Part shown: positions 27,636 through 49,547 of the stretch, piece after piece
Layout: each line of letters begins with the position of its first letter
How positions within the stretch are numbered: position 1 is the stretch's first letter
Assembly: GCA_902551185.1 (NCBI GenBank)
Contig: CACDCN010000005.1
Coordinates: forward strand, 1 to 55,973
Source: an uncultured SAR86 cluster bacterium
Lineage (GTDB): Bacteria; Pseudomonadota; Gammaproteobacteria; Magnimaribacterales; D2472
DNA length: 55,973 bases
Direction of reading: 5' to 3'
Notes under the pieces: model-generated
Databases searched by the model: none
What the model saw: the letters and a program-made list of their open reading frames with translations, nothing else
What the model was told of the DNA's origin: nothing
Translations under genes and position numbers: made by a program

Positions 27636-27644
27636 TTTTTTAGT

Positions 27645-28625: not shown

Positions 28626-29706
28626 TAATTCTATCTTGAATGTTTTGCCTTAATGTACCCCAAAAAAGCATAACATCAAAGGGGTGTAGGTCGCCGTTAA
28701 AATGTTTCATTTTTTTTATACTTTCAATTAAAGGGCCTTTGGTATCTATCAATCCTGTATCTTCATTTAAAGAAGCTTCAAATTCTTGTATTCTTGTTAA
28801 TCCAATAGATTTTTTTGTACCTGTATGTTCTATTCTTAGCCTATCTGTAAAATCATAATTTTGTGCTTTATTAATAATTGATTTATTTTCACTATTAGAA
28901 TGCCATTCATTATCATTTGTCCAAGAGAAAGGATTAGTTGCTACAACTTTTTGTTTCATTAATTCTACTGACCAGCCACTTGGTTTCCAAAAAAGAGTTT
29001 TTTCTCGATTCCTCTTAAAGCCTTCAACAACAGTAGACCAAGAGATAATACAATTAGTATCATCATAACTTTCTGATCTTTTGATATTAGGAAAAATTTC
29101 TTTGTAGTATTTTTCAGGAATCATATATCCAATAACATATGCGCATATAAATCTTTTTTGTAAATTGCTATTATCAATTCTTTGATTGATTAATCTATGA
29201 GCTAAAAGAGCCCCCTGACTATGAGCGGCAATAATAAATGGTTTATTACTATTTTGGTTTTCAATAAAATAATCAAAGGCTCTCTCAATATCTGTATATG
29301 CAAGATCAAGAGCTTGTTGACCATTTTTATTTATATCAAAGAAGGAATAATAAGTAGCTTGTCTATACTCAGGAGCATAAATATTACATGAATTATTGAA
29401 AGCAGAAATCTGATTTGCTAACACTATTTCAGTTCTTTCATATGCTGATCTTTTTTTATCCATATTCGAATTCCATTCTTTTTCATAAAATCCTGTGGGA
29501 TGAATATAAAAAACATCAACCGGATTATCAGATTTCATAACACTAAATGATGCATCAGGTACATCAAATTGTTGGCCATCAATAGCAGGTAATGCTGCCC
29601 AATTAGCATCATCTGAATAGTCTGGCTTTGGCGGAGACTTTGATATATCAAAATCTGTTTCAGGTTGAATATATTCTAAGAATTTTAAAAATATGTCGTC
29701 TGTCAT
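28612..29706 (-). CDS. DUF3089 alpha/beta hydrolase-like protein
   Basis: This 364-residue protein matches DUF3089: 'ADDANWAALP'-type opening (here 'YSDDANWAALPAIDG'), 'DVFYIHPTGFYEKEWNSNMD', 'CNIYAPEYRQATYYSFFD' and the nucleophile elbow 'IIAAHSQGALLAHRLI' with Ser. The C-terminal 'NGDLHPFDVMLFWGTLRQNI' likely carries the base His. Members are predicted lipases or esterases. No clear signal peptide. It starts immediately before the stop of the HD-domain gene and overlaps the next hydrolase, so three genes are coupled. Confidence 0.82.
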   Translation of the reverse strand: MTDDIFLKFLEYIQPETDFDISKSPPKPDYSDDANWAALPAIDGQQFDVPDASFSVMKSDNPVDVFYIHPTGFYEKEWNSNMDKKRSAYERTEIVLANQISAFNNSCNIYAPEYRQATYYSFFDINKNGQQALDLAYTDIERAFDYFIENQNSNKPFIIAAHSQGALLAHRLINQRIDNSNLQKRFICAYVIGYMIPEKYYKEIFPNIKRSESYDDTNCIISWSTVVEGFKRNREKTLFWKPSGWSVELMKQKVVATNPFSWTNDNEWHSNSENKSIINKAQNYDFTDRLRIEHTGTKKSIGLTRIQEFEASLNEDTGLIDTKGPLIESIKKMKHFNGDLHPFDVMLFWGTLRQNIQDRINAFI

Positions 29707-33467: not shown

Positions 33468-35423
33468 TTAATATTTTAAATTATTTTTTAGTTCATCTAA
33501 ATAGCTTTCATAGTTTTTCCAATAATCCATCCCACTTTTATATATAGGTTGACGAACCTGTTCAGCACTGGGTGTCTTAACCGATCTTTTAGATTTATAA
33601 AATTCAAGACACTCATTTTCGAACGGTATCTCACAATATTCCAAGATTTGGTTAACAGATTCTTCGAAATTATTAACTACATCTTCATAGTTAATAGATA
33701 AAATTTGATTTGGGAGAACTTTATTCCAGTGATCCATTAGTTCAATATAGTTATTGTAATAGCCTGCTAGATCTTTTAAATCATATGTAAACTCCTGGCC
33801 CTCAGCAAAAAGCTGTTTGTAACAAGCAAAGCATGCAGACATGGAAGATCTTCTTATATCAATAATTTTTGCATTAGGAAGGATTAATTTTATTAACCCG
33901 ATATGTCTAAAATTATTAGGCATTTTATCAAGGAAATATTGTTTATCAGTTCTAAAGACCTCGCTATCTGCAATATATTTATCCCCTATCATTTTTAATT
34001 GTGGTGCAGATAAACTTAATAAAATATCTGGATATCTTGAAGTAATATCTTGTGCCTTTCTTTCATTTAATCTTAAAGCAGTTGAGATAATATTTGGAAG
34101 TTCATGAGTAGCTTCAACCATAGAATGTGATGAAAGAATTTGCTCTATTAAAGTTGATCCAACTCTTGGTAAACCTAATATAAAAATTGGAGCCTTGTTT
34201 TCTGATCCCCAATCTTTTTTCATTTCAAATAACTCATTAGTACAGACATCTTTTTGATTATTACAATCTCTTTCAAAATCATCGATATTAAATAATGCTT
34301 TATTCTTTTTTATTTGATTTCCTGCTTTGTAATGTTCAAAAGAAAGGTTAAACTTTTCACGGTCTTCATAAGCCTTGCCTAAAGCAAAATGCATAAATGT
34401 TTTTTCTTCTTCATCTATATATTTATCTTTAACCATCTGTTTAAGAGAAGATACTTCTTTGTCTGAAAATTCATAAGTTTTTAAATTAGCTAAACTCCAA
34501 TATGAATCTCCAAAATATTTATCTGTCTTATATGCTTTTTGATATGAGTCTATTGATTTATTAATTTCTCCCGATGTCTTGTACAAATGTCCCATTGATA
34601 ACATTACATCAGTGTTTTTTGGTTCAACTTTTAATATATCGTTATATATATCAATTGCTTCTTTATACCTATCAGTCCTAAATAAAGCAGTTGATAGTAA
34701 TTTCATTGCATTAAGATTTTTTGGATCTTCATCATAAAATGCTTGAGCATGTTTTAATGCTTCTCCATATTTTTGTCTTTTTGTTAGTATGTTTATGTAG
34801 TCATATTTGATCATCGCATTATCTGGATCAAACAATAATGCGCTCTCCAATAAAAACTCTGCATCCTCGTAAATATTTAAGTCTCTGCCTATATTTGCTA
34901 ATAATCTCATTGCCTCAATATCATGAGGGTGCTCTTGTAAATATTGTCTACAAATATGATCAGCTCTTGCTAACTTGCCTTCATGAGTAAAACTAATTAC
35001 TGTTTTAAGTTCAGGTGGAAGATTTTTTAAGTAAAAAACATTTTGCTCTACAAATTTAATTAAATCCTGATTGCTTTCCTCTATAGACAAAATACCCAAC
35101 CAAGAAGCCTGTAACGAGGGGTTATGTCTTACTGCTCTTAAATAAGCCTTTAGTGCCTTATCTTTATCTTTTAATAAAACATGAACATGTCCAAATTCTT
35201 GAAATGCTCTTCCGTACTTGGGATCAATTTGAATTAAATTATCAAGCCCTTTTATTGCTTTGTCTAATTCATTTAAGTATCTATAACAAACTGATGTTAA
35301 ATAAAAATAATCTCTTTTTGAAATAGATTTATTATATTTATTACATAAATTTAAAGCTTCATTGAATTCTTTATTCTTAATTGAAGCTTCAATATTTTTT
35401 AAAGGCTCTACATTCTCGTTCAT
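33468..35423 (-). CDS. TPR-repeat sulfotransferase (module 1)
   Basis: This 651-residue protein joins about nine TPR units (residues ~1-390, for example '[20 protein letters not shown]' and 'TDVMLSMGHLYKTSGEINKS') to a C-terminal sulfotransferase domain. The PAPS 5'-phosphate loop is 'FILGLPRVGSTLIEQILSSH' near 412-432. The 3'-phosphate region is 'IIDIRRSSMSACFACYKQLF'. The C-terminal 'KTPSAEQVRQPIYKSG' is shared with its paralogue at 41495-43087. PAPS-dependent sulfation of a peptide, glycan or lipid is likely; the acceptor is unknown. It begins 24 nt after a terminator hairpin behind a TonB-dependent receptor gene. Confidence 0.88.
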   Translation of the reverse strand: MNENVEPLKNIEASIKNKEFNEALNLCNKYNKSISKRDYFYLTSVCYRYLNELDKAIKGLDNLIQIDPKYGRAFQEFGHVHVLLKDKDKALKAYLRAVRHNPSLQASWLGILSIEESNQDLIKFVEQNVFYLKNLPPELKTVISFTHEGKLARADHICRQYLQEHPHDIEAMRLLANIGRDLNIYEDAEFLLESALLFDPDNAMIKYDYINILTKRQKYGEALKHAQAFYDEDPKNLNAMKLLSTALFRTDRYKEAIDIYNDILKVEPKNTDVMLSMGHLYKTSGEINKSIDSYQKAYKTDKYFGDSYWSLANLKTYEFSDKEVSSLKQMVKDKYIDEEEKTFMHFALGKAYEDREKFNLSFEHYKAGNQIKKNKALFNIDDFERDCNNQKDVCTNELFEMKKDWGSENKAPIFILGLPRVGSTLIEQILSSHSMVEATHELPNIISTALRLNERKAQDITSRYPDILLSLSAPQLKMIGDKYIADSEVFRTDKQYFLDKMPNNFRHIGLIKLILPNAKIIDIRRSSMSACFACYKQLFAEGQEFTYDLKDLAGYYNNYIELMDHWNKVLPNQILSINYEDVVNNFEESVNQILEYCEIPFENECLEFYKSKRSVKTPSAEQVRQPIYKSGMDYWKNYESYLDELKNNLKY

Positions 35424-35447
35424 TAGACAATTTTAATACAGTTATTT

Positions 35448-35478
35448 AAAAAAAAGGCCAGTATAAACTGGCCTTTTT
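35448..35478 (-). terminator. Rho-independent terminator between receptor 1 and sulfotransferase 1
   Basis: A perfect 7-bp inverted repeat, GGCCAGT (35456-35462) and ACTGGCC (35467-35473), with a 4-nt loop is flanked by an A run on one side and a T run on the other. It works as a terminator on the minus strand (T run at 35455-35448) and could also act on the plus strand. It lies 22 nt after the receptor stop and 24 nt before the sulfotransferase ATG, so it may act as an attenuator rather than a full stop. Confidence 0.9.
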
Positions 35479-35495
35479 AAAAGTTAATAATCTAA

Positions 35496-37922
35496 TTAGA
35501 ATTTATAACTCATTCTTACACCAATATTTCTTGGTCTATTGGTTGTAATTCTAGGTATATCATCCTGATCGTTATAATAAAAATTAGCTCTTTCGTCTGT
35601 AGCATTCCTTACAAAGAATTCTATATCCGTGTTGTTAATGGTAAAACCATAAGCTAAATCTATTATTTCATATGCAGGTTGCTCTAGACGTTTAGCCGCC
35701 TCAAGAGAACTGTAAGCTTTATCAGCCTCTTTTATAGCAATCTGAGTATATGCAGGGTTACCCTTGAATTCAGAATCAATTCTAACTCTAACGTTATATT
35801 GAAGTTTTGGAGATAATGGCATAGCACTACCTACATTTGATATTTGAATAATTTTTGATTTATCCGCAACAACTTCTGTGTCATTCCATGATATAGCACT
35901 AGCAATAGTTACTCTATCAGTCGGATACCAAAGAATATCAGCTTCCATACCTTCAATTTCTGCATCAGCAGCATTTTCTATAAATGTTAATAGTCCAACA
36001 TTTACTGGATCAAACTGAGAAACTTGGACATTGCTCCAATCAACCCAGTAATATGATGCATTCAATCTCATTGCACCATCCATAAGTAAAGTTTTAACAC
36101 CTATCTCTGTATTAACAGTATCGTCAGTTCCATATGTAATTTCTACATTAGGTAATGATGAATTTCTTGATGCTAATCCACCACCTCTATTAAATCCACC
36201 AGGTCTATAACCTTCAGATCTTGTGAAATAGTACATAGTATCTTCATCAGCTGTATATTTCATAGTGAACTTAGAAATAGTATCATTCATATTCATTGGT
36301 TCAGTACTATGATCACCAGAACTAATATAGTTTCTACCATTACTTACGTTTGAGCCTCTATAACCAAACTTAGATTGTCCAATAAAGCCAACATCTAGGT
36401 CATATTTTCTAGCCCCAACAATCATATCTAATTGATCAGTAATAGGAACTGTTACTTCAGCAAAATATGCTGTTTGATCTTCAGTTCTTTGAATGTCATT
36501 AAAGAATCTACATTCAGGTCTTCTTACTCTATTTTCTCTTGACCAAGCTCCAGGTAATGGATTATTAGCTTGATAAGGAGCCCACGTGCCAGTATTAGCA
36601 TATGGATGCAAAGTACCTAAGTAACAATAATCATTTTCTGTTTCAAGAATATTTTCATCCAAGAAAATACCTGCAGTAAATGAAATATCTGATTCCCATG
36701 CTTCATTTGATGAAACTCTGAACTCATGTGTAGTTCTTTCGTTTTTATCAAATAATTCAACTGATACTGTAGCAGGTCCGCAAAGTGTATAAGCTGTATA
36801 GTTACATACATAGTATGGTAACCATGCACCAACATTTGCATAACCACTATAGTCAACTTGTTGTTCAGCTTCTCTATCTAGATAAGCTCCAGTATATAAA
36901 GCGTCTAATTTACCTACTCTTCCTTCTAGTGTTAATGAAGTTTGAGTAAATGTATCATCTAATGTATCAGGAACGAATCTGCTTACATTAAGATCGCCTT
37001 TCTCTGGATCATAATCGAATACACCATCAGCGCTAATGTCTTGTTTCATGTGAACAAGAAGCATTTCCCAATCTTCACCAATTGTAGATTGTGAAGAAAG
37101 TCTAAACCCTTCATAAGAAGCGTCGTTAAAATCTTCTTCAACTAATGCTGCGTTATCTTCTGTTACCCATGCTTGAGTTGCAGAATACGAAGCAAAAGTT
37201 CCCCGACCTTGTCCTGACCATGTACCAGCAACGTTGTCTATATAACCACCTTGATCTGATTTATAGAAAACGCCTCTAATTGACCAAGCATCATTTATTA
37301 GGGGAACGTTCATATAAGCATCATATGCATGTGATGGAGAACCGTGAGCAGTATTGTAATGCATCATATTAAACCCACCTTCACTTTCGTTATATTTAGG
37401 CTTATTAGTGATCATTCTTACAGTACCAGCCTGTGAGCTAGCTCCATATAATGTTCCTTGAGGTCCAGGAAGTACCTCTATTCTTTCCATATCTGCAACA
37501 TACACATCCAAGTTTCTTCCAGGAACTTGAAGTGGTTGTTCATCAACATACAAGGCCACGTTTGGACTTGAACCTTGTGCAGAAGATAAGAAGACGTTTA
37601 CAGGGTCAACAGCCATACCTCTAATATAGATTGTTGATTGTCCAGGTCCTCTACCACCTGATGTTACATTAGGTAAGTATTGAATGTATTCATCAAAATT
37701 TGAAACATTCATTTCCTTTAAAGTTTCTTCGGTTAAAGCGGTTACCGTTACAGCAACTTTTGAAGCACTTTCATCCTTCTTAGTAGCAGAAACAACAACT
37801 TCTTCAATTTGTCTCTCTTGAGACTCAGCAGTTTGAGGAACCATTGCAGCAACAGCACCTAAAACACCCAAAGATATCTTATTATTAATTTTATTAATTT
37901 TTGTTTTAACTAAATCAAACAT
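35496..37922 (-). CDS. TonB-dependent outer-membrane receptor (module 1)
   Basis: This is an outer-membrane beta-barrel transporter of about 808 residues. A signal peptide ending near 'AAMVPQTAESQ' is followed by the plug domain: 'IEEVVVSATKKDES', 'LPNVTSGGRGPGQSTIYIRG', 'LYVDEQPLQVPGRNLDVYVA', 'RIEVLPGPQGTLYGASSQAG' and 'VRMITNKP'. The barrel ends 'NRPRNIGVRMSYKF' with a terminal aromatic. The ATG at 37922 has GAGGA six bases upstream and is preferred over the longer in-frame start at 37970. It is a paralogue of the receptor at 43144-45411; both have two Cys in one extracellular-type loop ('YYVCNYTAYTLCG' here). The substrate is unknown and no iron-specific mark is seen. Confidence 0.94.
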   Translation of the reverse strand: MFDLVKTKINKINNKISLGVLGAVAAMVPQTAESQERQIEEVVVSATKKDESASKVAVTVTALTEETLKEMNVSNFDEYIQYLPNVTSGGRGPGQSTIYIRGMAVDPVNVFLSSAQGSSPNVALYVDEQPLQVPGRNLDVYVADMERIEVLPGPQGTLYGASSQAGTVRMITNKPKYNESEGGFNMMHYNTAHGSPSHAYDAYMNVPLINDAWSIRGVFYKSDQGGYIDNVAGTWSGQGRGTFASYSATQAWVTEDNAALVEEDFNDASYEGFRLSSQSTIGEDWEMLLVHMKQDISADGVFDYDPEKGDLNVSRFVPDTLDDTFTQTSLTLEGRVGKLDALYTGAYLDREAEQQVDYSGYANVGAWLPYYVCNYTAYTLCGPATVSVELFDKNERTTHEFRVSSNEAWESDISFTAGIFLDENILETENDYCYLGTLHPYANTGTWAPYQANNPLPGAWSRENRVRRPECRFFNDIQRTEDQTAYFAEVTVPITDQLDMIVGARKYDLDVGFIGQSKFGYRGSNVSNGRNYISSGDHSTEPMNMNDTISKFTMKYTADEDTMYYFTRSEGYRPGGFNRGGGLASRNSSLPNVEITYGTDDTVNTEIGVKTLLMDGAMRLNASYYWVDWSNVQVSQFDPVNVGLLTFIENAADAEIEGMEADILWYPTDRVTIASAISWNDTEVVADKSKIIQISNVGSAMPLSPKLQYNVRVRIDSEFKGNPAYTQIAIKEADKAYSSLEAAKRLEQPAYEIIDLAYGFTINNTDIEFFVRNATDERANFYYNDQDDIPRITTNRPRNIGVRMSYKF

Positions 37923-38178
37923 ATGAATCCTCATAGTTATTTTATATAAATTGCTATATAAATAAGGCACATGACCCTAGAAGACTTTTCCCCCAGAGAA
38001 ATTTAGCAATATTTATAGACCAGCAATTTCAGTAAATCGGTCTGTTGCCAATGATAACATCTTATAACTATCATGCAATATAGCTATAATTTATAGTTAT
38101 AATAAAAAATAACTATAATTTATAACTAGATTAATAATATCAATTATGTTTCACTAGTGATGTTTAAAAATAGAGTCC
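37923..38178. promoter_or_regulatory. Divergent control region of receptor 1 and BCCT transporter 1, with repeats
   Basis: This 256-bp region is the longest gap in the window. It holds two copies of CTATAATTTATA, at 38084-38095 and 38113-38124, each inside a 21-bp near-match (38080-38100 and 38109-38129, 17 of 21 bases the same). They are spaced 29 bp apart. The 7-bp arms TAGTTAT (38094-38100) and ATAACTA (38109-38115) are inverted repeats between them. A related TTATAACTAT lies at 38062-38071. This looks like an operator set nearer to the BCCT gene. No regulator gene lies alongside. Confidence 0.5.
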
Positions 38179-39669
38179 ATGAATAACATAAGTAAACCAA
38201 GATTTCTTATATCAGTTTTTTTGATATCGCTTATCACTGCCGTTGTTTCACTAAATTCAGATATTTCAGAGTCATTTTTCCTAGATTTACAAACGTTTTT
38301 ATCTAAATATTTAGGTTGGATGATCATTGTCTTGGCTAATGGATTTGTAATATTTTCTATATTTTTAATTTTTACTAAATATAAAGATATTAAACTAGGT
38401 GGTTCTGAAGCCAAGCCAACATATTCTTATGTAAACTGGATTGCGATGTTATTTAGCGCCGGATTAGGTATCGGACTGCTATTTTATGGTGTTGCTGAAC
38501 CCATTATGCATATGAATTCTTATCCAGGTATGGTTGAGGGTGATATTTCATATAATGCAGGCAAAGCAATAGGTTTAGCAAATCTTCATTGGGGACTCCA
38601 TGGCTGGGCGATTTATTCATCTCTTGGGCTGTGTTTTGCATTTGCTTCATATAATAAAAAATTACCATTTAGAGTGAGCTCTTTATTAGGCTCCAAAGTT
38701 TCAAACAATAAACCTTTAGCTATATTGATAGATATTATTGCAATTCTAACTACTGTATTTGGTGTAACAACTTCACTCGGCTTAGGTACAGTTCAAATCA
38801 GCTCAGGTTTAGCTCATGTTTTTTCAATTAATGAAAGTTTCTCAAATCAGGTAATTATTATTGCTGTAATTACTTTGATAGGACTAATAAGTGTTTGTCT
38901 TGGTCTTGATACTGGAATTAAAAAACTATCTCAAATAAATATGATATTAGCAATAACACTCATGACATTTATATTTATATTTGGTCCTACTGTATTTATA
39001 TTAAATGCTCTTATTCAAAATTTTGGTTCGTATGTAAATACTTTAATTGAATCTGCCACATGGACAGAGGTTTATCAATCTACATCATGGCAAAATGGTT
39101 GGACATTATTCTTTTATACTTGGTGGTTTGCTTGGGCGCCTTTTGTATCATTATTTATTGCAAGAATTTCTTATGGAAGATCAATTAAAGAATTTATCAT
39201 AGGAGTTTTATTCGTTCCTTCATTAATAGTATTTTTATGGATGGGTATCTTTGGCAATGCTGCAATATATCAGGTAATTAATGAAACTAGTCAGATTAAT
39301 GAAATTGTAAATAATAATTACACGGTAGCACTTTTTGCTCTTTTTGATGTCTACCCGATCGCTAAAATAGCTTCAATATTTTCTTTAATACTTATAGTTA
39401 CATTCTTTGTCACATCATCTGATTCGGGTGCGCTTGTTGCATCTATGCTTTCATCAAGGAGTCAAGCTAGCATCAATGATGATTCTCCAATATTATCTAG
39501 AGTAACATGGGCAATATTATTAGGGATCTTAGCAGGTGTACTTTTGTATGCAGGTGGACTAACTGCGCTTCAAACCTCTGTAGTTATTTTAGGGGTTCCA
39601 TTTTCAATCATTGTGGTATTTGCTTGTAGACATTTCTATAGATCTCTTGAGGATGAACTAAATAATTAA
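38179..39669 (+). CDS. BCCT-family transporter 1
   Basis: This 496-residue protein has about twelve helices. It carries the betaine/carnitine/choline transporter core: 'MLFSAGLGIGLLFYGVAEPI' (glycine-rich TM3 stretch and Trp/Glu region), 'NLHWGLHGWAIYSSLGLCFA' and the family signature 'WTLFFYTWWFAWAPFVSLF' near residues 309-327 followed by 'ARISYGRSIKEFI'. BCCT proteins import trimethylammonium or sulfonium compounds such as glycine betaine or DMSP with Na+ or H+. The substrate is not certain. It diverges from TonB receptor 1, with which it shares the repeat-bearing control region. Confidence 0.92.
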   Translation: MNNISKPRFLISVFLISLITAVVSLNSDISESFFLDLQTFLSKYLGWMIIVLANGFVIFSIFLIFTKYKDIKLGGSEAKPTYSYVNWIAMLFSAGLGIGLLFYGVAEPIMHMNSYPGMVEGDISYNAGKAIGLANLHWGLHGWAIYSSLGLCFAFASYNKKLPFRVSSLLGSKVSNNKPLAILIDIIAILTTVFGVTTSLGLGTVQISSGLAHVFSINESFSNQVIIIAVITLIGLISVCLGLDTGIKKLSQINMILAITLMTFIFIFGPTVFILNALIQNFGSYVNTLIESATWTEVYQSTSWQNGWTLFFYTWWFAWAPFVSLFIARISYGRSIKEFIIGVLFVPSLIVFLWMGIFGNAAIYQVINETSQINEIVNNNYTVALFALFDVYPIAKIASIFSLILIVTFFVTSSDSGALVASMLSSRSQASINDDSPILSRVTWAILLGILAGVLLYAGGLTALQTSVVILGVPFSIIVVFACRHFYRSLEDELNN

Positions 39670-39815
39670 TGTAGCTCCTCATCAATTTTTTTTAATTCGT
39701 CTTTATCCATTTCATCTTCATAGATAAGACTATTATTTTTTTTATTATTAATCCTTTTCGCAAAAATTAATGCAGCGACTACAAAAATTAATATAATTCC
39801 AAGTTGATATAACAT
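39666..39815 (-). CDS. 49-aa single-helix membrane protein
   Basis: A short minus-strand frame from ATG 39815 to TAA 39666 encodes a 49-residue peptide. It has one N-terminal membrane helix ('LYQLGIILIFVVAALIFAK'), a basic patch 'RINNKKNN' that would place the tail in the cytoplasm, and a strongly acidic C-terminus ('EDEMDKDELKKIDEELH'). It overlaps the convergent BCCT stop by 4 bp and starts 59 bp from the divergent nitroreductase. Evidence is a clean hydrophobic/basic/acidic layout that fills an otherwise empty gap. Function unknown. Confidence 0.6.
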   Translation of the reverse strand: MLYQLGIILIFVVAALIFAKRINNKKNNSLIYEDEMDKDELKKIDEELH

Positions 39816-39874
39816 AAAATCTATATTTATAATTAACTTATCTGCATCATAACTCTTTAAAAGGTAAACACAAA

Positions 39875-40426
39875 ATGGACGCGTTAGATAATATATTAAA
39901 AAGAGTTTCTGCTAGAGAGCTTGCTGAGCCTCATCCTACTAAATCTGAAATGGAAAAAGTATATAAAGCTGCATTAAGAGCACCAGATCATGCGTGGTTA
40001 AGACCAAGCAGTTTTATTGAAGTTAAAGGAGATGGATTAAATAAATTATCAAATATTTTTTTAGAATATGCTAAAAATCAAACTGATATAACCGATCAAA
40101 TAATACAAAAATATAAAAACGCTCCATTTAGGGCCCCAATGATAATAATATTAGTAAATACATTTAAAGAACATCCAAAAGTCCCGGCAATAGAACAAAA
40201 ACTATCAACTGCAACAGCAGCTCAAAATATAATGCTTGCATTAAATACAATGAATTATTCTAGTATTTGGAGAACTGGTAAATTAGCCTTTAATAAAGAA
40301 ATTCAAAAAAAATTAAATCTTTCAGATAATCAAGAAATATTAGGGTACTTATATATTGGTACATCAATAGGAGAAAATAAAAAAATACCTAATTTAGATA
40401 TTGATAATTTTGTATCTTATTTATAA
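39875..40426 (+). CDS. Nitroreductase family protein, YdjA-like
   Basis: This 183-residue FMN-type nitroreductase has 'ILKRVSARELAEPHPTKSEM', 'AALRAPDHAWLRPSSFIEV' (the YdjA-like FMN phosphate region with R-A-P-D-H), 'QKLSTATAAQNIMLALNT' and 'SIWRTGKLAF', ending with 'ILGYLYIGT'. Members reduce nitro or quinone compounds with NAD(P)H, and physiological substrates are mostly unknown. An AAAGG ribosome site precedes the ATG. Its end overlaps the convergent membrane protein gene by 6 bp. Confidence 0.9.
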   Translation: MDALDNILKRVSARELAEPHPTKSEMEKVYKAALRAPDHAWLRPSSFIEVKGDGLNKLSNIFLEYAKNQTDITDQIIQKYKNAPFRAPMIIILVNTFKEHPKVPAIEQKLSTATAAQNIMLALNTMNYSSIWRTGKLAFNKEIQKKLNLSDNQEILGYLYIGTSIGENKKIPNLDIDNFVSYL

Positions 40427-40798
40427 GTCGCTTGATTTATATAAAGCTGAAGCAGCAAATGCTATAGAAAAAAATATTATTTCCGAAACTAATGATGAGA
40501 TTGCTAATGGGGCATCATGATTTAGTGATGCTAGAACATTAAAAATTGCAGCAAGTAAATAAATAATGCCTACACTAAATATCCACTCATATTTTTTTGT
40601 TATCAGTGATAAAAATGACATTATTGCTGTTCCTAGAAAAAATGCAGTGAAATCTCTAATTTGTGTATTCCTTCCCTCGCCTTCAAGATAAAGCATATTT
40701 AAAGATTCAGCCGCAGCTTCAGGAGTAAATATCCATTGCAATGATAATAGTGCTAGGACCGTTCCTAGCAAAGCTGATAATATATTGGCAGTCTTCAT
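40421..40798 (-). CDS. Small four-helix membrane protein (DUF4345-like)
   Basis: This 125-residue protein has four predicted helices (residues ~5-25, 48-64, 72-90 and 98-117). The loop 'GEGRNTQIRDFTAFFLGTAI' after the first helix resembles the DUF4345/DoxX-like small membrane protein group with a conserved R-x-(F/L) segment. Function unknown. It overlaps the S51 peptidase stop by 4 nt on the same strand, so the two are likely co-expressed. Confidence 0.65.
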   Translation of the reverse strand: MKTANILSALLGTVLALLSLQWIFTPEAAAESLNMLYLEGEGRNTQIRDFTAFFLGTAIMSFLSLITKKYEWIFSVGIIYLLAAIFNVLASLNHDAPLAISSLVSEIIFFSIAFAASALYKSSDL

Positions 40799-41493
40799 AT
40801 ACTAATTTCTTCTATATCTTTTATCTGATTATGTATTATTTTAGAATTTTTATGAGTTACTTCATAGCATTTATTTTCTTTTCCAAAGTTTATTGAAAAT
40901 TTAGGTTCATCGTTTACTAAATGCAATGCACAAAATCCCTCTATTGCATAACATATATTGATTTCATTATTTTTAAGAATTTTTTCTACATAAGGAATCC
41001 TTTCAGGCTCTTCATCATAATGCGGGCAACATACACCATTTACAAAATTTAAACAGGGCAAGATTGATTGATGGTCTTTAAATGAATCAGTAATTCCATT
41101 TGTAAACCAACATATAGCTCCAGCACTTACACCGCTCATAATAATTCCATTCTTATAAGCTTCATATAAAATTTTATCTAATTCCCATTCTTTCCATACT
41201 GCAAGCATACTTTTAGTATTACCTCCGCCTACAAAAATAATATCTTGTTTATTAATATGTTCCTTTAGTTTTATAGTTCTTTTGAAAAGGTCTATATGTG
41301 ATGTTTTACAATTTAATGAATCAAATGCTTTGTAGAAATTATTTATATAATCTCTATCATCGCCTGTGGCTGTTGGTATAAAACAAATTGAAGGATTTTT
41401 TTTAGTTGATTGACTAACAATATACTTTTCAATTTTTAAATTTTTTATTTCTCTACCAAAACCACCCCCACCTATGGCGATTATTTGTCTCAT
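40795..41493 (-). CDS. Peptidase S51-family protein (dipeptidase E / cyanophycinase-like)
   Basis: This 232-residue class I glutamine-amidotransferase-fold protein has the start 'IIAIGGGGFGRE', 'IIFVGGGNTKSMLAVW' and the nucleophile elbow 'IIMSGVSAGAICWF' with Ser near residue 121. 'YAIEGFCALHLVN' lies near the C-terminus and is typical of S51 members with the catalytic His region. It may hydrolyse Asp-containing dipeptides. It follows TPR-sulfotransferase 2 after 1 nt on the same strand. Confidence 0.87.
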   Translation of the reverse strand: MRQIIAIGGGGFGREIKNLKIEKYIVSQSTKKNPSICFIPTATGDDRDYINNFYKAFDSLNCKTSHIDLFKRTIKLKEHINKQDIIFVGGGNTKSMLAVWKEWELDKILYEAYKNGIIMSGVSAGAICWFTNGITDSFKDHQSILPCLNFVNGVCCPHYDEEPERIPYVEKILKNNEINICYAIEGFCALHLVNDEPKFSINFGKENKCYEVTHKNSKIIHNQIKDIEEISI

Positions 41494-41494
41494 A

Positions 41495-43087
41495 TTAATT
41501 ATTCTCCATGCTTAAAGTCTTTTTTAATGTATCTAGCCAATTATCAAAATTTCTCCATTGACCAATGCCTTTATTATAAATCGGTTGTCTAACCTGCTCC
41601 GAACTAGGGGTTCTGACTGTTCTCTTTGTTTTGTAGAAATTTAAACAATCTTCTTCAAAATCTAATTCACAAAATTTTAATAAATTTCTTATTTCATTTT
41701 CTGTATCTTCAACCATATTTTCATAAATTACTCTATGAACTTTACCAGGTAATACTTTATCCCAGTGATCCATTATCTTTAAATAATCTAAATAATAATT
41801 ACCTATTCTATTTTGAGAGTAAGTAAATCCTTGACCAGAGCCAAAAAGTTGCTTGTAACAACTAAATGAACAATCCATTGGATTTCTTCTAGCATCAATT
41901 ATTTTTGCATTAGGAAGTATTAAATGAATTAACCCAATATGAACAAAATTATTTGGCATCTTGTCTATGAAGTATGGTTTATCGGTTACTCTTTGATCCA
42001 GAGTATTCTTAAGATAAGCACCACCCATTTCTTTAAATTCAGCTTTCTCTATACTCTTTAATGAAGATGGATATTCAGATTTGCTATTACTATTTTTTTT
42101 ATTTGCTATTTTTCTTGATAACGCAATTATATTTTGTAGTTCAGTAGTCCCCTCCACCAAAGAATGAGACGATAAAATCTGCTCAACTAATGTTGATCCA
42201 GACCTAGGCAAACCTACAACAAAAATTGGGTCAGTATTTTTATTACCTACTCCATCAAGGGCTTGTAATTGTTCCTGAGTAAAAAAATCTATTAATTCAT
42301 TACATTCATTGGTAAATTTTATAGAGTCCCATGGAACCTGTTTGCTTTTTATAGTATTTCCTTTAGAGTAAGCTGCCATTGCAGCTTCAAAGTTCTTTCT
42401 ATCTTCTTCAGCTTTTCCAAAAGCAAATAACAAATGGTAATAATCATCAATTTTACAGTCTTTATTGTTTAATAAAACTTTAAGTTCATTAATATCTTCA
42501 TTAGTAAATTTATACGTTTTAAGATTTGCAAGACTCCAATACGCTTCACCATATCCTGTTTTAGTAGAAATAGCTTTTTTATAGGACACTATTGCCTCTT
42601 CAATCCTGCCTACAGCTCTTAGGGTATGGCCATAACTTAAATGTAATTGATTGTTCTCAATTTTTTTATCATTAATTATTATTTCAAATATTTCTAATGC
42701 ATTGTCATGTTGATTTGCCAAGGCTAAATTAACTGCCTTTAATGTTAGATATTGAGCATTATCTTTATCTTTATCTAAAAGAAGATCTATTTCCTTTAAA
42801 GCTTCAAATGGAAGTTGTCTTTTATATAATAAATTTGCATAACTTAATCTAGCCTCATCATAATCTGGGGCTAAATCTAAAGCTCTTGTTAAAAGATATC
42901 CGGCATCTTTATATGCTCTAAATTTGACACCAATATCTGCTAATAATTTCATTGCATTTACATCCAATGGATCATCATTTAAATAGTTTCTTAATATTGG
43001 TTCAGCTTTTTTAAGTTTATCCTGAGAAATTAATTCCGCTGCTTTGATCAAATCAGGTGGAATATTGTTTTTAGTATAGCTACTCAA
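41495..43087 (-). CDS. TPR-repeat sulfotransferase (module 2)
   Basis: This 530-residue paralogue of the protein at 33468-35423 has fewer TPR units (residues ~1-265). The sulfotransferase domain has the PAPS loop 'FVVGLPRSGSTLVEQILSSH' near 287-306, 'IIDARRNPMDCSFSCYKQLF' for 3'-phosphate binding and the shared C-terminal 'RTPSSEQVRQPIYNKG'. The only workable start is TTG 43087, nine bases after a terminator hairpin; no clear ribosome site is present. Weak initiation plus the hairpin suggest low expression relative to the receptor. The acceptor substrate is unknown. Confidence 0.87.
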   Translation of the reverse strand: MSSYTKNNIPPDLIKAAELISQDKLKKAEPILRNYLNDDPLDVNAMKLLADIGVKFRAYKDAGYLLTRALDLAPDYDEARLSYANLLYKRQLPFEALKEIDLLLDKDKDNAQYLTLKAVNLALANQHDNALEIFEIIINDKKIENNQLHLSYGHTLRAVGRIEEAIVSYKKAISTKTGYGEAYWSLANLKTYKFTNEDINELKVLLNNKDCKIDDYYHLLFAFGKAEEDRKNFEAAMAAYSKGNTIKSKQVPWDSIKFTNECNELIDFFTQEQLQALDGVGNKNTDPIFVVGLPRSGSTLVEQILSSHSLVEGTTELQNIIALSRKIANKKNSNSKSEYPSSLKSIEKAEFKEMGGAYLKNTLDQRVTDKPYFIDKMPNNFVHIGLIHLILPNAKIIDARRNPMDCSFSCYKQLFGSGQGFTYSQNRIGNYYLDYLKIMDHWDKVLPGKVHRVIYENMVEDTENEIRNLLKFCELDFEEDCLNFYKTKRTVRTPSSEQVRQPIYNKGIGQWRNFDNWLDTLKKTLSMENN

Positions 43088-43096
43088 TTTACATAT

Positions 43097-43126
43097 AAAA
43101 AAGGCCGCATCAATGATACAGCCTTT
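43097..43126 (-). terminator. Rho-independent terminator between receptor 2 and sulfotransferase 2
   Basis: The minus strand forms a 12-bp stem with two G-U pairs (43115-43126 with 43100-43111) around a 3-nt loop, followed by a run of six T (43102-43097, partly inside the stem end). It lies 17 nt after the receptor stop and only 9 nt before the TTG start of the sulfotransferase. That leaves no room for a separate promoter there, so the sulfotransferase probably depends on read-through or on a promoter inside the receptor gene. Confidence 0.85.
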
Positions 43127-43143
43127 AAGTTTTTATTTTAAAA

Positions 43144-45411
43144 CTAGTTCAAATTCCAAGAATATCTTACACCAATAGTCATCGGTCTATTTACTGTGGT
43201 AAGTCTTTCAATATCCTCGCTATTGATATAAAGTTCTGCAACTTCATCAAATACATTATCCATATATATCTGCATAGTTGAGTTATCGCCTAGTTGAGTT
43301 GTGAATGACATATTACTTATCGCATAAGAATCTTGTAATTCTCTATCATCGTAAAATAAATCATTCCACATTTCATCTACGAATACATGGTTAAATTGAA
43401 AGCTTGATGTATCTGTTATATCTACATTGATAGTCACATTATATTTTTTGTCAGGTGTAAATGGTAAATCTTGACCATCTCTTGCCTCAACAACACCTCT
43501 TAATGTGTAATCTTCTTTTAATGCAGTACTATTTTCAGAAAACCCAACTGCAATACTTACAGCATCATTGACTAAATACTTTAAGTCAATTTCTGTACCA
43601 TCACTTTCAGCTTTTCCGATATTATCTACTAGTCCTAATAATGATATTGATGAATCAAACCACCCAAGTTGTATATCATCCCAATCCATTATATAAAGTG
43701 CCCCATTAAGTCTAAGCCTTCCATCCATTAACATAGATTTAAAACCTATCTCTTTACTTTCTAAGAAGTCAGCGTCATATGTAGCACCTAACTGAGTTGT
43801 TCTGTTAGCTCCACCAGGTCTATAACCTTCAGAGAAAGTAACATACATCATTGAGTCATTATTTAATGCATATGATAAATTCACCTTAGTAATATCATCA
43901 CTTCCACTATAGATAGAATTAACATTATCAGGTCTGGTTGCACTTCCTAAAATATAATTTGGCCACCAAACAGTTCCTACAAAACCTTTTAGTGTTGTAT
44001 CCATATCAAATTTTCTCTTACCAAGAGTTAATTCCATTTTGTCATTAATCTGGTAATAAATTTCTCCAAAAACAGCTGATTCTTCTTCTGTTCTTACTTG
44101 ATCAGTTTGATAATAAAGATCCTTTGAACCTGGAACAGCTGCTAAAGGATTTATTGCTGGTACATGCCATTGAGAATTATACTCAGTAACATTCTCGGTT
44201 TTAAATGAACCAAGAATCCAGTTCAATTTCCCATCACCTTTTGAAGACAGTCTTATCTCAGTAGTGTCGTATTCTTGATGAGTATCATTTTCAAATTGAA
44301 TGCTAGGATCAACACATGGTCCAAAATAATATTCATAACAAGTATAGTAACCTTCAACATAACCATCTATTGAATAGTGTGAATAGTCACTTAAAACTTC
44401 AAAATCTCTGTCCATACTTGATGTTGTAAAGGTTAGGTCAGCAAAACCTAAGTCACCAGTTAACGTAACAGCAAATCTTTCCCAATCATCTGTTTGAGAA
44501 TCGTCATAGAATCTGCTTACATTGTATTCACCAAGTGCGTCTGGATTATGGTCCCATACACCATCAGAAGTTGTCTTCTGACCCATTGATGACATATCTA
44601 ATTTCCAATTTTCAGTTAAATCGATTCTCAATGCAGCTCTATATCCAGTTTTAACAGCATCATTAAAATTATCTTCAACATATAATTCGTTTGTTTTAGT
44701 AATGCCACTAACCGGATAAGTAATAGAATCAGCAACTGAGTCTATATAACCACCATCCCTGTCGTTATAACCTACTAATCTCAGAGCCATATTCTGTGAT
44801 AATGGAATATTAACAAACCCTTCGACTAATGAGCTGGTTTGTCCACCTTTAGTTGATTCTGCACCAATATTGACACCTGAATCAAATTCACTCGTTGGTT
44901 TTTTAGTAATAATCTTTAAATTACCTGCTTGAGATGCAGCTCCATACAATGTGCCTTGTGGACCAGAAAGAGATTCAACTCTTTCAATGTCGTATATATG
45001 AACATCTAAATTATCACCAATCATAGTTACAGGTGATTCATCAAGATATATAGCTACGGCAGGACCCTGAAGTGATTGGTTGGAGTTACCTCCATCAGAT
45101 ATACCTCTCATAAATATCTGCCCCATTCCAGGCCTTCTCTGAACTGCAGAAACAGATGGCAACTGAAGTACATAATCAGCAAAATCTTTAATATTTAAAG
45201 ATTCTAATTCATCAGCAGATAGCGTGGTTACACTGATTGGAACATCTTGTAAATTTTCAGTTTTCTTTTGTGCGCTAACAATAACTTCTTCAATCATTAA
45301 GTCATCTTGCGCGATAGTATTTGCACTAACTAAGACAGCAGAAGCTATTGCAGTAGCTTTTGTTGTTTTAATTACTGCGTCGTGTACTTTTTCAGCGTGA
45401 AATATATTCAT
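43144..45411 (-). CDS. TonB-dependent outer-membrane receptor (module 2)
   Basis: This receptor of about 755 residues has a signal peptide ('AIASAVLVSANTIAQ'). The plug has 'IEEVIVSAQKKTEN', 'VQRRPGMGQIFMRG', 'IYLDESPVTMIGDNLDVHIY' and 'SLSGPQGTLYGAASQAG', and the barrel ends in 'NRPMTIGVRYSWNLN'. The ATG at 45411, preceded by GGGG, is chosen over an in-frame TTG at 45423. The loop 'YYTCYEYYFGPC' has the same position and Cys pair as in receptor 1. Barrel sequences have otherwise diverged, so the substrates probably differ. The gene diverges from the M28-like lipoprotein across an AT-rich gap of about 95 bp. Confidence 0.94.
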   Translation of the reverse strand: MNIFHAEKVHDAVIKTTKATAIASAVLVSANTIAQDDLMIEEVIVSAQKKTENLQDVPISVTTLSADELESLNIKDFADYVLQLPSVSAVQRRPGMGQIFMRGISDGGNSNQSLQGPAVAIYLDESPVTMIGDNLDVHIYDIERVESLSGPQGTLYGAASQAGNLKIITKKPTSEFDSGVNIGAESTKGGQTSSLVEGFVNIPLSQNMALRLVGYNDRDGGYIDSVADSITYPVSGITKTNELYVEDNFNDAVKTGYRAALRIDLTENWKLDMSSMGQKTTSDGVWDHNPDALGEYNVSRFYDDSQTDDWERFAVTLTGDLGFADLTFTTSSMDRDFEVLSDYSHYSIDGYVEGYYTCYEYYFGPCVDPSIQFENDTHQEYDTTEIRLSSKGDGKLNWILGSFKTENVTEYNSQWHVPAINPLAAVPGSKDLYYQTDQVRTEEESAVFGEIYYQINDKMELTLGKRKFDMDTTLKGFVGTVWWPNYILGSATRPDNVNSIYSGSDDITKVNLSYALNNDSMMYVTFSEGYRPGGANRTTQLGATYDADFLESKEIGFKSMLMDGRLRLNGALYIMDWDDIQLGWFDSSISLLGLVDNIGKAESDGTEIDLKYLVNDAVSIAVGFSENSTALKEDYTLRGVVEARDGQDLPFTPDKKYNVTINVDITDTSSFQFNHVFVDEMWNDLFYDDRELQDSYAISNMSFTTQLGDNSTMQIYMDNVFDEVAELYINSEDIERLTTVNRPMTIGVRYSWNLN

Positions 45412-45506
45412 GTTTTTCCCCAAATTTTTAAAAAAATCTAGTTAAAATATACAATAAATTCAAAATATAGTAAATTTTTATTAAAAATAATAAAATCATT
45501 AAAAAA
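45412..45506. promoter_or_regulatory. Divergent promoter region of receptor 2 and M28-like lipoprotein
   Basis: This 95-bp extremely AT-rich gap must hold promoters for both genes. Many TATAAT-like hexamers fit on either strand, so no single promoter can be singled out. The GGGGAAAAAC just upstream of ATG 45411 is the ribosome site of the receptor. The repeats seen upstream of receptor 1 are not present here. Confidence 0.45.
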
Positions 45507-47291: not shown

Positions 47292-48851
47292 CTAATAACC
47301 TAACTCAATACATACCGGTTTTGCTTGACTGATCTTCATCTTCGAGTATCTATCATACGAAAATATATTAAACTTTTCTGAATCAAATTGATGCCATGTT
47401 TTATAGTTAGTATTTGGATTTCCGGTTTTTAAGAAATTTATCCAATGTGCTTGTATTTTTCTTGTTATAAGATCATCTATTCTTGAGGTTGGCAACCATT
47501 TATCATGTGTATTAAATATGTAAGGTATTTCTGCTCCATGATAAGCACCCATCTCTTTACTCTTTTCACCTTCTCTTACCCTATCAAATGAATAAAACCA
47601 AACATTATTATTTGTATGCTTAGTTAAAGATTTAGCAATAAATGATGATGGACAAGTCCAATTTCTCGACGTTAATAAATAATTAAGCTTTTTTTTCTCG
47701 CTTTTAATATCTTCTACAATTAAATTTAATTTATCATCATCTACATAAAACCCCCAACTTTCTCTTTCATCATAAAAATTAGATAAATAATAATCTTCAG
47801 CTAAATACATTAGTTCTTCATCTGAGTTGGTTCCAATAATAAGATCGACATGATTAAAATTTCCTGTATCAAATGATGTAAAAATCGGTTCGAGTATTGA
47901 ATGATTGTCTACCACAGGATAATAGCCTGTATAACCATAAATCTTTTCTGCTTGATTGAGCAATTTTATTGAGTTAATTTTTTTTAGCTCATTAATACTA
48001 GCTCTTTTGTTATCATAACCAGTTAATTCAACAGATAGTTTATTAGATAACTTTATGTGTTCATTGCTTGCAATATAATCTTTATCTGAAATTGACCAGC
48101 CTGCACTTTGGTGGATTGCTCTTTTAAATAAATTTTTACTTAAGGGGGATGCTATTAAATGGGCTACATTTGTAGCGCCTGCTGACTCACCTGAAATTGT
48201 TACATTATGTGGGTCTCCGCCTACTTTAGAAATATTCTTTTTTATCCATTTTAACGATTCTATTAGATCAAGTAATGCAAAATTAGATACACCTAATTGA
48301 GGGTGCGAATAAAAACCAAATATGCCCAGTCTATATGCAACAGTAACTACTATTACTCCTTCTTTGGATAATTTCTCACCTATATAGTTTGGTTCAAAAG
48401 ACCACCCTGCTCTATTAGAGCCACCATGAATATATACTAATACTGGTAGCTTGGTTTGTTTCTCAATATTTTCTGGGATCCACATGTTTAAATAAAGGCA
48501 ATCTTCACTCACATCCGGCATATCGATATAATTTGGATCACCACCAAAACCAATAGCAACGCCTTTATACCAATTTACAATTCTTGGTCCTTGCATGCAT
48601 GCTGATGCAAACTTATTTGCATAATATTTATCTTCATTAAATATTTTTGCTTTAGTCTTTTCCCATCGCAACTCACCAATAGGAGGCTCTGCAAAAGGAA
48701 TGCCTAGATAAGTGTGAACATTGTTTTCTATGGTACCTATTATTTTAGTTTCACCTATATAAAAACTTACATCAGAATAAATATGATTAGTATTAAATAG
48801 AAAGAATGTTACTAAAAATAATTTATAAATTTTTGACATATTAAACTGCAT
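47292..48851 (-). CDS. Type B carboxylesterase, exported
   Basis: This 519-residue esterase has a signal peptide ('KLFLVTFFLFNTNHIYSD'). The family markers are 'YLGIPFAEPPIGELRW', the oxyanion segment 'VLVYIHGGSNRAGW', the nucleophile elbow 'VTISGESAGATNVA' with Ser near 218, Glu in 'GTNSDEELMY' near 340 and His in 'GAYHGAEIPYIF' near 436. It hydrolyses carboxylic esters in the periplasm or outside the cell; the substrate is unknown. Its start overlaps the PD-(D/E)XK nuclease gene by 11 nt, an unusual pairing. It is convergent with the M28-like gene across an 87-bp gap holding no clear hairpin. Confidence 0.93.
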   Translation of the reverse strand: MQFNMSKIYKLFLVTFFLFNTNHIYSDVSFYIGETKIIGTIENNVHTYLGIPFAEPPIGELRWEKTKAKIFNEDKYYANKFASACMQGPRIVNWYKGVAIGFGGDPNYIDMPDVSEDCLYLNMWIPENIEKQTKLPVLVYIHGGSNRAGWSFEPNYIGEKLSKEGVIVVTVAYRLGIFGFYSHPQLGVSNFALLDLIESLKWIKKNISKVGGDPHNVTISGESAGATNVAHLIASPLSKNLFKRAIHQSAGWSISDKDYIASNEHIKLSNKLSVELTGYDNKRASINELKKINSIKLLNQAEKIYGYTGYYPVVDNHSILEPIFTSFDTGNFNHVDLIIGTNSDEELMYLAEDYYLSNFYDERESWGFYVDDDKLNLIVEDIKSEKKKLNYLLTSRNWTCPSSFIAKSLTKHTNNNVWFYSFDRVREGEKSKEMGAYHGAEIPYIFNTHDKWLPTSRIDDLITRKIQAHWINFLKTGNPNTNYKTWHQFDSEKFNIFSYDRYSKMKISQAKPVCIELGY

Positions 48852-49521
48852 ATTTCTTATGGAATTCTATCAATCTTTTTTTCCATAGTTTAGTTAAAAC
48901 ATTAAATTCAGCAGGCTTTACAATAAATTCTTGAAATAATAAATCTCTATCAACCATTAATATAACTACTTGATTTATTTCTGTGCCAAACATTACATTA
49001 TGAGCATTTGCATATGCACAACCTTGAAGAAAATAATCCTCTATCCATTCCCTTCTTTTCATCCTTCTTGATGTTTTAAAATCTATTATAGATGGAATAT
49101 CATTAATTTTTCCGACACAATCAGCTGTCCCAGCATATAAACCATCAAGCATTAAACCAACCTCAAGACCCCAAACTTCAGAAATAGTTTGTATTCCTGT
49201 ATCAATAAATTTATCTGTAATTTTATTTGCAATAATACCATTTTGATCATCACTAAAATTCTTCCAATCCTTTTCATTTAAAAAATTTTCTAAGGCCTCA
49301 TGAACCATACTCCCAATATCAGTACTTTGTTTAGTTATCCTGTCAGCCTCATCATCACCAACCTTATTTCTCCATTGCTGAATTGAGTCTGATTTGTCTG
49401 ATGTTTTACCTAGAACAGTAGTAACGCTTGGAACTGTTTGATTTTTTGAATCTATATAATATCTACCAATTTCTTTATCTACTCTTTTTAACTCAGGATA
49501 TTGATAAATATTTGTTATCAT
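48841..49521 (-). CDS. PD-(D/E)XK nuclease-superfamily protein (RecB/Cas4/phage exonuclease-like)
   Basis: This 226-residue protein has the RecB-type nuclease motif order: His-Glu in 'GSMVHEALENFL', the metal Asp in 'LYAGTADCVGKI', the D-x-K catalytic pair in 'SIIDFKTSRRMK' and the Q-x-x-x-Y motif in 'DYFLQGCAYANAH'. All key residues are kept, so it is probably an active exonuclease. Similar stand-alone proteins occur in marine phages, and no CRISPR or recombination genes lie nearby. A 26-bp gap separates it from the divergent BCCT gene, and the esterase gene follows with overlap. Confidence 0.82.
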   Translation of the reverse strand: MITNIYQYPELKRVDKEIGRYYIDSKNQTVPSVTTVLGKTSDKSDSIQQWRNKVGDDEADRITKQSTDIGSMVHEALENFLNEKDWKNFSDDQNGIIANKITDKFIDTGIQTISEVWGLEVGLMLDGLYAGTADCVGKINDIPSIIDFKTSRRMKRREWIEDYFLQGCAYANAHNVMFGTEINQVVILMVDRDLLFQEFIVKPAEFNVLTKLWKKRLIEFHKKYAV

Positions 49522-49547
49522 TGTCTAAATATTTCTATAGTTTTAAT

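Follow-up and report, generated by a model that had tools for sequence, protein, structure and literature searches.

Coupling of TonB-dependent receptor, TPR-sulfotransferase and BCCT transporter genes in SAR86 and other Proteobacteria, and a proposed sulfation of the receptor loop

Why should the gene of a cytoplasmic sulfotransferase lie directly downstream of the gene of an outer-membrane importer? The question is raised by a contig of an uncultured SAR86 cluster bacterium (CACDCN010000005.1 of GenBank assembly GCA_902551185.1, positions 1 to 55,973; this whole stretch is called the window below). Within 33468-45423 of the window, two pairs of genes, each encoding a TonB-dependent receptor and a sulfotransferase with tetratricopeptide repeats (TPRs), lie on the minus strand in identical order, the receptor first and the enzyme directly downstream (TB1-ST1 and TB2-ST2). 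The answer that we favour, by a narrow balance of the evidence, is that the enzyme sulfates a loop of the receptor in the cytoplasm before export, and that this loop helps to capture a quaternary-ammonium cargo for a transporter of the BCCT family.

An earlier note on this DNA, made from the sequence alone, had described the two pairs on one strand and in one order, and all four genes were confirmed by Pfam matches and coordinates (PF07715, the TonB Plug domain; PF13469, Sulfotransfer_3, Pfam cut-off 27 bits). Both ST1 and ST2 combine TPRs with a domain dependent on 3'-phosphoadenosine 5'-phosphosulfate (PAPS), as had been claimed; PF00685 also matched them (39 and 56 bits), more weakly than PF13469. 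The motifs quoted in that note are present (TPSAEQVRQPIY / TPSSEQVRQPIY and GPQGTLYGASSQAG / GPQGTLYGAASQAG), and so is the Cys-pair loop, in TB1 and in TB2. Translation of TB1 probably starts at 37934, a position favoured by homologues, and that of TB2 likely at the ATG at 45411. The assembly (920 kb, 77% complete) contains 10 Plug matches and 3 Sulfotransfer_3 matches; both long sulfotransferases are directly downstream of a receptor, and the third is not. The latter corresponds to a 372-amino-acid open frame (G000:C3:3090-3824, L104) within a stretch of 12 kb in which no receptor was seen, and this short type was also found in many genomes of the order, among the matches listed.

Three sets of loci were compared: 64 loci from the same order (SAR86 relatives), 36 first-tier loci from a phylum sample of 398 genomes, and 80 loci of named genomes (the best of at least 586 retrieved solely on the similarity of their enzyme), with enzyme score cut-offs of 230, 590 and 550 bits, respectively. 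The control consisted of 51 second-tier TPR-sulfotransferases (cut-off 250 bits) in 43 loci, hand-picked from a longer phylum listing. Four loci are common to two sets and the loci are mutually related, so that the counts do not represent independent events. A receptor was found at 400 bp or less from 170 of 204 distinct enzymes (SAR86 62/90, phylum 33/37, named 78/81), compared with 3 of the 51 second-tier enzymes, and the gap between receptor and enzyme had a median of 71-87 bp; the association is therefore not random. Among the 28 remaining SAR86 enzymes, 25 had a receptor within 5 kb, two lay at the edge of a contig and only L092 had none. In 19 of the 25 cases at 0.4-5 kb a BCCT gene lies between enzyme and receptor; L044, L051, L055 and L056 look like broken reading frames, and L036 and L054 are near a contig end, their own receptor being cut off.

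The same coupling was observed at the level of whole genomes. When the top three enzyme and top two receptor candidates of each of the 398 genomes were scored, both score distributions were bimodal, and the 28 genomes with an enzyme at or above about 600 bits (599.8) were the 28 with a receptor of at least 490 bits, the genome of the window being set apart. All but one of the 34 high-scoring receptors adjoin an enzyme, the exception (G333:C1:1413384) lying about 9 kb from one. The pairing recurs in SAR86-type relatives and in other Alpha- and Gammaproteobacteria, with one enzyme clade and one receptor clade; the genera with named strains include Erythrobacter, Idiomarina, Colwellia and Novosphingobium. 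A search of viral contigs with ST2 returned no related sequence. In addition, two tandem enzymes flanked by two paired-clade receptors were seen in L290:174-9575. Several TPR-sulfotransferase matches per stretch were observed without receptors in L215, L210, L213 and L221, and three large open frames with such matches (L208:3480-8657, L212:4990-8667 and L216:9455-13063; 1725, 1225 and 1202 amino acids) are perhaps repeated or fused units.

Trees of the two families were computed, with quicker settings, for 179 of 184 pairs, pairs with identical enzyme segments having been dropped. Tree distances were correlated (0.837, against 0.096 for the best of 999 permutations), 69 of the 105 supported enzyme splits were also present in the receptor tree, and for 109 of the 179 pairs the nearest neighbour was identical in the two trees. 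The match is incomplete: 28 of the 105 supported splits of the enzyme tree are contradicted by a supported split of the receptor tree. The pairs thus appear to have moved as units for the most part, apart from some exchange or noise, and shared vertical descent alone would also yield such agreement. In conclusion, the functional pairing suggested by the earlier note survived the two tests that it had set beforehand, the association count and, for the greater part, the tree comparison.

The neighbour that the earlier note had missed is a BCCT gene. BCCT transporters take their family name from betaine, carnitine and choline, and carry these and like compounds. By profile search, a BCCT gene was found in the stretch of 116 of 175 distinct loci (SAR86 59/64, phylum 18/36, named 42/80), compared with 1 of the 43 second-tier loci and none of seven loci of the assembly's own unpaired receptors. 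Clustering of the neighbours in the 116 phylum and named loci (open reading frames of at least 60 amino acids, small groups being only partly annotated) gave BCCT in 60 loci, a group that is MarR-like by eye in 19 and aldehyde dehydrogenase in 10, followed by groups of 5-8. Among 100 genomes of the order, 54 had both the TPR-enzyme and BCCT, two had the enzyme only, three had BCCT only and 41 had neither; enzyme presence was judged here by match length among the matches listed, and the three BCCT-only genomes may be gaps. The enzyme is missing from two families of the order, and BCCT was found in none of 26 genomes of these. The only two BCCT genes found in the assembly are those of the window, one near each module. 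Both match PF02028 along its length and score below all substrate-specific NCBIfam cut-offs, and that of module 1 is above the general bcct cut-off. The recurrent unit is small, consisting of receptor, enzyme and often BCCT, and these three families are genomically coupled in Alpha- and Gammaproteobacteria, well beyond the window in which the pairing was correctly noticed.

What, then, is the acceptor of the enzyme? In the AlphaFold2 model of ST1 (mean predicted local distance difference test score, pLDDT, 91), the seven best structural matches by VIA-align were all tyrosylprotein sulfotransferases (TPSTs; Z 19.6-20.2, root-mean-square deviation 2.6-2.9 A over 232-235 residues, 15-17% identity). 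The next sulfotransferases were domains of polyketide enzymes, from an olefin synthase and from CurM (Z 16.1 and 15.8). Foldseek with ST1 returned no sulfotransferase among the 50 matches listed, all of which were TPR proteins. A profile of the catalytic domain, compared with the PDB, matched TPST1 best (E 4e-13). The enzyme's C-terminal EQVRQPIY...W aligns with DQVIKPVN...W of TPST1, and the CurM alignment stops before this motif, which favours an affinity with TPSTs. Residues R420, E441, K500 and S619 are invariant in 47 of 47 enzymes and aligned with TPST; from the roles in TPST2, we take them to be the 5'-phosphosulfate-binding Arg, the catalytic Glu, the Lys and the 3'-phosphate-binding Ser, the Arg-Glu spacing of 21 residues being the one found in TPST2. 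Hydropathy revealed no signal peptide and no membrane segment in the enzymes. In conclusion, the predicted fold of the catalytic domain is closest to that of TPSTs, protein-tyrosine sulfation itself being a proposal.

The sequence affinity is less exclusive than the structural one, and this weighs against our proposal. CurM came close behind TPST1 in the profile search (E 3e-12), TPST2 reached only E 4e-9 to 7e-9, and CurM also carries Glu and Lys at the aligned positions, so that these residues are not TPST-specific; sequence alone therefore leaves the subfamily unsettled. Searched as a single sequence against the PDB, ST2 matched the polyketide sulfotransferase 4gox over part of the domain (E 5e-5), TPST1 at about 8e-4 (residues 283-483) and CurM at 0.0055 (286-489). 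The TPR part of ST2 had O-GlcNAc transferase as its best match in such a search (E 6e-8). TPR matching is unspecific: many TPR proteins score well, a designed TPR protein ranked above O-GlcNAc transferase by profile, and, on inspection by eye only, an Asn ladder as in O-GlcNAc transferase was not seen in the TPR groove.

TB1 and TB2 are TonB-dependent receptors by their Plug domain and TB1 also by its predicted fold: the AlphaFold2 model (pLDDT 84) shows a plug and a barrel and matches the TonB receptor FyuA with Z 35.9 (616 residues aligned, 16% identity). The Cys-pair loop of TB1 (residues 361-390) lies between two long strands, and the alternation of long loops with short turns in the model suggests that it is on the outer face. 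In nearly every paired receptor this loop has conserved Tyr after Asp, and a Cys pair (DYxxY...YYxC). Among 45 aligned receptors, Y365 and Y375 were found in 45, D361 and Y362 in 44 and both Cys in 43; among 176 paired receptors the counts were 176 for Y365 and for Y375, 175 for Y362, 171 for D361 and 162 for each Cys. In 13 SAR86 paired receptors, D346, Y347, Y350 and Y360 of TB2 were invariant, and C362 and C370 nearly so. The outer loops of such receptors are usually their most variable parts, yet the Tyr of this loop are near-invariant.

The strict motif was present in 156 of the 176 paired receptors and in none of 43 other receptors, a group from which L081, L083, L093 and L282 are left out as paired and which includes the orphan receptor of genome G070 and the receptors of L229-L231. 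In 154 of 174 receptors, no part of the barrel is richer in Tyr than the stretch that begins with DYxxY. The richest 30 residues of a receptor hold on average 7.8 Tyr in paired and 5.1 in unpaired receptors; the TB2 loop has 8 Tyr per 30 residues, and some SAR86 members have up to 17. An Asp just before the Tyr is the preference of animal TPSTs, according to section 4 of a review (PMC9372746).

A protein sulfotransferase needs a protein acceptor and the receptor, the only protein encoded next to it almost throughout, offers a conserved Asp-Tyr loop, which makes the receptor the likely substrate; the BCCT partner in turn suggests a cationic ligand, suited to a negative aromatic loop. Each module would then be an uptake unit equipped with an enzyme dedicated to modifying its receptor. 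In the cytoplasm, the TPR arm of this enzyme would hold the new, unfolded receptor, as its likeness to the arm of O-GlcNAc transferase suggests, while the TPST-like domain, judging by fold, catalytic residues and motif, would transfer sulfate from PAPS to the tyrosines of DYxxY...YYxC. After export through Sec, the receptor would fold into the outer membrane, its sulfotyrosine-bearing, disulfide-pinned loop lying outside, where this anionic aromatic loop might capture or gate a cationic quaternary-ammonium ligand (betaine, carnitine or a choline-like compound) or a conjugate. TonB would power import of the ligand across the outer membrane and the BCCT carrier, to which the recurring gene points, would move it or a breakdown product over the inner membrane. 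We infer acceptor, sulfation and cargo from coupling, fold and loop conservation. The general form of the proposal, in which widespread importers carry an extracellular loop that is Tyr-sulfated before export by a dedicated TPR-guided enzyme and serves as an anionic aromatic trap for BCCT cargo, is a tentative extension that we consider possible and hold below an even chance. The earlier note had also considered that the enzyme might sulfate some part of the envelope on which the receptor depends; that idea comes close to ours once this part is taken to be the receptor's own loop.

Several observations speak against receptor sulfation. The loop is modelled worse than the barrel (pLDDT about 75), and a window of 30 residues with as many as 10 Tyr also occurs in one receptor outside the pairs. 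Because the paired receptors form a single clade, common descent could account for the joint occurrence of motif and enzyme; the motif may simply mark that clade, its Tyr binding a ligand unmodified. The receptors that adjoin second-tier TPR-sulfotransferases in L229-L231 lack the motif; they belong to a different TonB receptor subfamily, and this arrangement is a possible second pairing. The orphan receptor of G070 (L201:6013-8388) belongs to the paired clade (792 bits) and retains the loop as DYSGF...PYYTC in a genome with no Sulfotransfer_3 match and no BCCT match; its altered loop is as compatible with relaxed selection as with plain drift. No receptor was found in the fetched stretch of the second copy of L189 or of L197, L198 and L199 (phylum sample), nor in that of L255 or the lower-scoring L092. 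BCCT was absent from the stretch in 56 of the 116 phylum and named loci.

The supply of PAPS is a further difficulty. ATP sulfurylase of the PF01747 type was found in 1 of 100 genomes of the order and its other type, by CysD, above cut-off in none of the 100, and PF01507, the family that holds PAPS reductase, was over its cut-off in 18, only two of them exceeding 30 bits. With ATP sulfurylase hardly seen in the order, the source of PAPS for the enzyme is doubtful. A short protein like the kinase of adenosine 5'-phosphosulfate (APS) was encoded in 60 of 70 genomes with sulfotransferases and in 2 of 30 without; its scores are weak (about 22-38 bits, mostly over the first 90 of 152 positions), and no such protein was found in the assembly of the window. 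This co-occurrence also fits the third, non-TPR enzyme, rather than ST1 and ST2. In family f2, an APS-kinase-like frame of about 140 amino acids often adjoins the third, non-TPR Sulfotransfer_3 gene (for example G093:C8:14374, G081:C3:15838, G063:C1:435668 and G069:C6:68461).

The strongest rival explanation, which we nevertheless regard as unlikely, places the sulfate on the cargo: receptor and BCCT would import a hydroxylated quaternary-ammonium compound, and the cytoplasmic enzyme would then sulfate it, turning choline into choline-O-sulfate, for instance, as a store or an osmoprotectant. Choline is known to be sulfated with PAPS as donor, and a BCCT gene is a recurrent neighbour of the pair. 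A few loci also encode relatives of other quaternary-ammonium enzymes: a GBBH-like dioxygenase in 2 of 80 named and 1 of 64 SAR86 loci, and trimethylamine methyltransferase in 3 of 80 named loci. By sequence, TPST1 is only slightly closer to the domain than CurM, an enzyme whose substrate is a polyketide chain; this, together with the missing loop in L229-L231, shifts a little weight from receptor sulfation toward cargo sulfation. However, the receptor adjoins the enzyme (170/204) more often than BCCT is in the stretch (116/175), protein sulfotransferases lead the structural matches by about 4 Z units, the TPR arm recalls that of an enzyme that modifies proteins, and the Asp-Tyr loop would be left unexplained. 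That loop also bears on the idea that its Tyr bind the ligand unmodified, by stacking or cation-pi contacts, the substrate of the enzyme being encoded elsewhere. Aromatic cages do bind quaternary ammonium, and G070 retains most of the loop with no sulfotransferase match; the near one-to-one pairing of two clades would remain without explanation, and we rank this as the least probable of the alternatives.

Two further rivals keep the acceptor outside the receptor, as the earlier note had supposed when it suggested that a peptide, glycan or lipid is secreted and then recovered by the receptor; in the clustering of the 116 loci (frames of at least 60 amino acids, small groups annotated in part), no such neighbour group stood out. 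In a methanobactin-like scheme, a secreted sulfated peptide or small carrier would be finished by the enzyme and re-imported by the receptor. A sulfotransferase gene is present in the methanobactin operons of two Methylocystis, and TonB transporters are found in operons of this kind (PMC3621798, in its account of them); a tiny precursor below 60 amino acids could have escaped the clustering. Yet receptor and enzyme are only the short median gap apart, the clustered neighbours are BCCT, MarR and aldehyde dehydrogenase with a single possible exporter group recognised (MFS, by eye, in 6 of the 116 loci), and the methanobactin sulfotransferase MbnS is described as PF00685 (PMC3621798), whereas the window enzymes score better with PF13469. 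No recurrent peptide, exporter or glycan gene was otherwise recognised near the pair in this clustering, and we consider re-import improbable. Slightly more improbable still is the sulfation of a surface glycan or lipid that assists the receptor: sulfotransferases for envelope glycans and lipids exist, but of the neighbour groups that were annotated, which cover part of the neighbours, none was recognised as serving the synthesis of glycans or lipids, and the closest structural matches are protein sulfotransferases.

The features of the window are listed in Table 1. Relatives of the alpha/beta hydrolase that follows the second BCCT gene were found in 35 of 64 SAR86 loci and in none of the 116 others, and this hydrolase may have a role in the module. 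Relatives of the S51 peptidase-like protein showed a similar distribution (34/64 and 0/116), which reflects SAR86 synteny only. The type-B carboxylesterase was considered as a core member and rejected, since its relatives are rare near the pairs (10 of 64 SAR86 and 3 of 116 other loci). Genes for an MFS_2 transporter, an alpha/beta hydrolase and a DUF3089 protein lie in series near the modules (26241-29706).

Table 1. Coordinates of the two receptor/sulfotransferase modules and of neighbouring genes in the window
Feature	Positions	Strand	Basis
ST1, TPR-sulfotransferase, 651 amino acids	33468-35423	-	PF13469 142 bits, TPRs
ST1, TPST-like catalytic domain (predicted)	33618-34190	-	PF13469; structural matches to tyrosylprotein sulfotransferases
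TB1, TonB-dependent receptor paired with ST1, 824 amino acids	35496-37970	-	PF07715 63 bits
TB1, candidate sulfation loop, residues 361-390 of the 812-residue form	36765-36854	-	Model and conservation
BCCT transporter, module 1, divergent from TB1	38179-39669	+	PF02028 535 bits
S51 peptidase-like protein directly after ST2	40795-41493	-	PF03575 178 bits
ST2, TPR-sulfotransferase, 530 amino acids	41495-43087	-	PF13469 161 bits, TPRs
ST2, TPST-like catalytic domain (predicted)	41651-42229	-	PF13469
TB2, TonB-dependent receptor paired with ST2, 759 amino acids	43144-45423	-	PF07715 57 bits
TB2, candidate sulfation loop, residues 346-374	44302-44388	-	Conservation, Tyr content
Type-B carboxylesterase, between TB2 and the second BCCT gene	47292-48851		
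BCCT transporter near module 2	49428-51023	+	PF02028 307 bits
Alpha/beta hydrolase after the second BCCT gene	50998-51876	+	PF12697

If receptor sulfation is correct, these would be receptors whose uptake depends on a post-translational modification. In its passages on bacteria, a 2022 review (PMC9372746) describes TPST genes as sparse and names only RaxST with a substrate; the enzymes described here would form a second, wider bacterial TPST-like group with a candidate acceptor next door, so that bacterial Tyr sulfation becomes directly testable. They also tie an uncharacterised class of TonB receptors of SAR86-type ocean bacteria to quaternary-ammonium compounds, through the BCCT gene. In the limited collection of literature searched, no paper on a receptor/TPR-sulfotransferase unit was found.

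Compared with known systems, the window enzymes recall RaxST of Xanthomonas, likewise a cytoplasmic bacterial sulfotransferase that has been likened to TPST and has an exported substrate (PMC9372746 and PMC6637879, in their descriptions of it). RaxST modifies the small secreted peptide RaxX and is encoded beside a type I exporter, whereas the window enzymes adjoin an outer-membrane receptor; their TPRs also set them apart from RaxST, as it is described. No small secreted peptide with type I secretion genes stood out among the neighbours of at least 60 amino acids clustered in the 116 loci. Methanobactin operons likewise bring together a sulfotransferase and a TonB transporter and, as described in PMC3621798, have a peptide precursor and biosynthesis genes, a group that did not stand out here; MbnA with MbnB/MbnC was not seen in the clustering, in which short frames and MbnB models were not searched. 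The receptors share the plug and barrel of the TonB siderophore receptors FyuA, FoxA and FhuA, from which they differ by the Tyr-rich, Cys-paired loop and by their sulfotransferase and BCCT partners.

The sulfotransferase domains of CurM and of the olefin synthase (4gbm and 4gox; E 3e-12 and 7e-11) are a close second by profile; they sit in polyketide enzymes, and the part that aligns extends no further than profile position 219-220, short of the C-terminal motif. O-GlcNAc transferase also has a TPR arm fused to a protein-modifying catalytic domain, which is unrelated to that of the window enzymes. The closest predicted fold is that of animal TPST1 and TPST2 (PDB 5wrj and 3ap1; tick 8w5z), and TPST1 is the best PDB profile match of window-type enzymes, through the C-terminal motif. 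The window enzymes differ from animal TPSTs in being bacterial, in having a long TPR arm and, by hydropathy, in having no membrane anchor; they resemble in fold the enzymes that sulfate tyrosines of secreted proteins in animals, human included.

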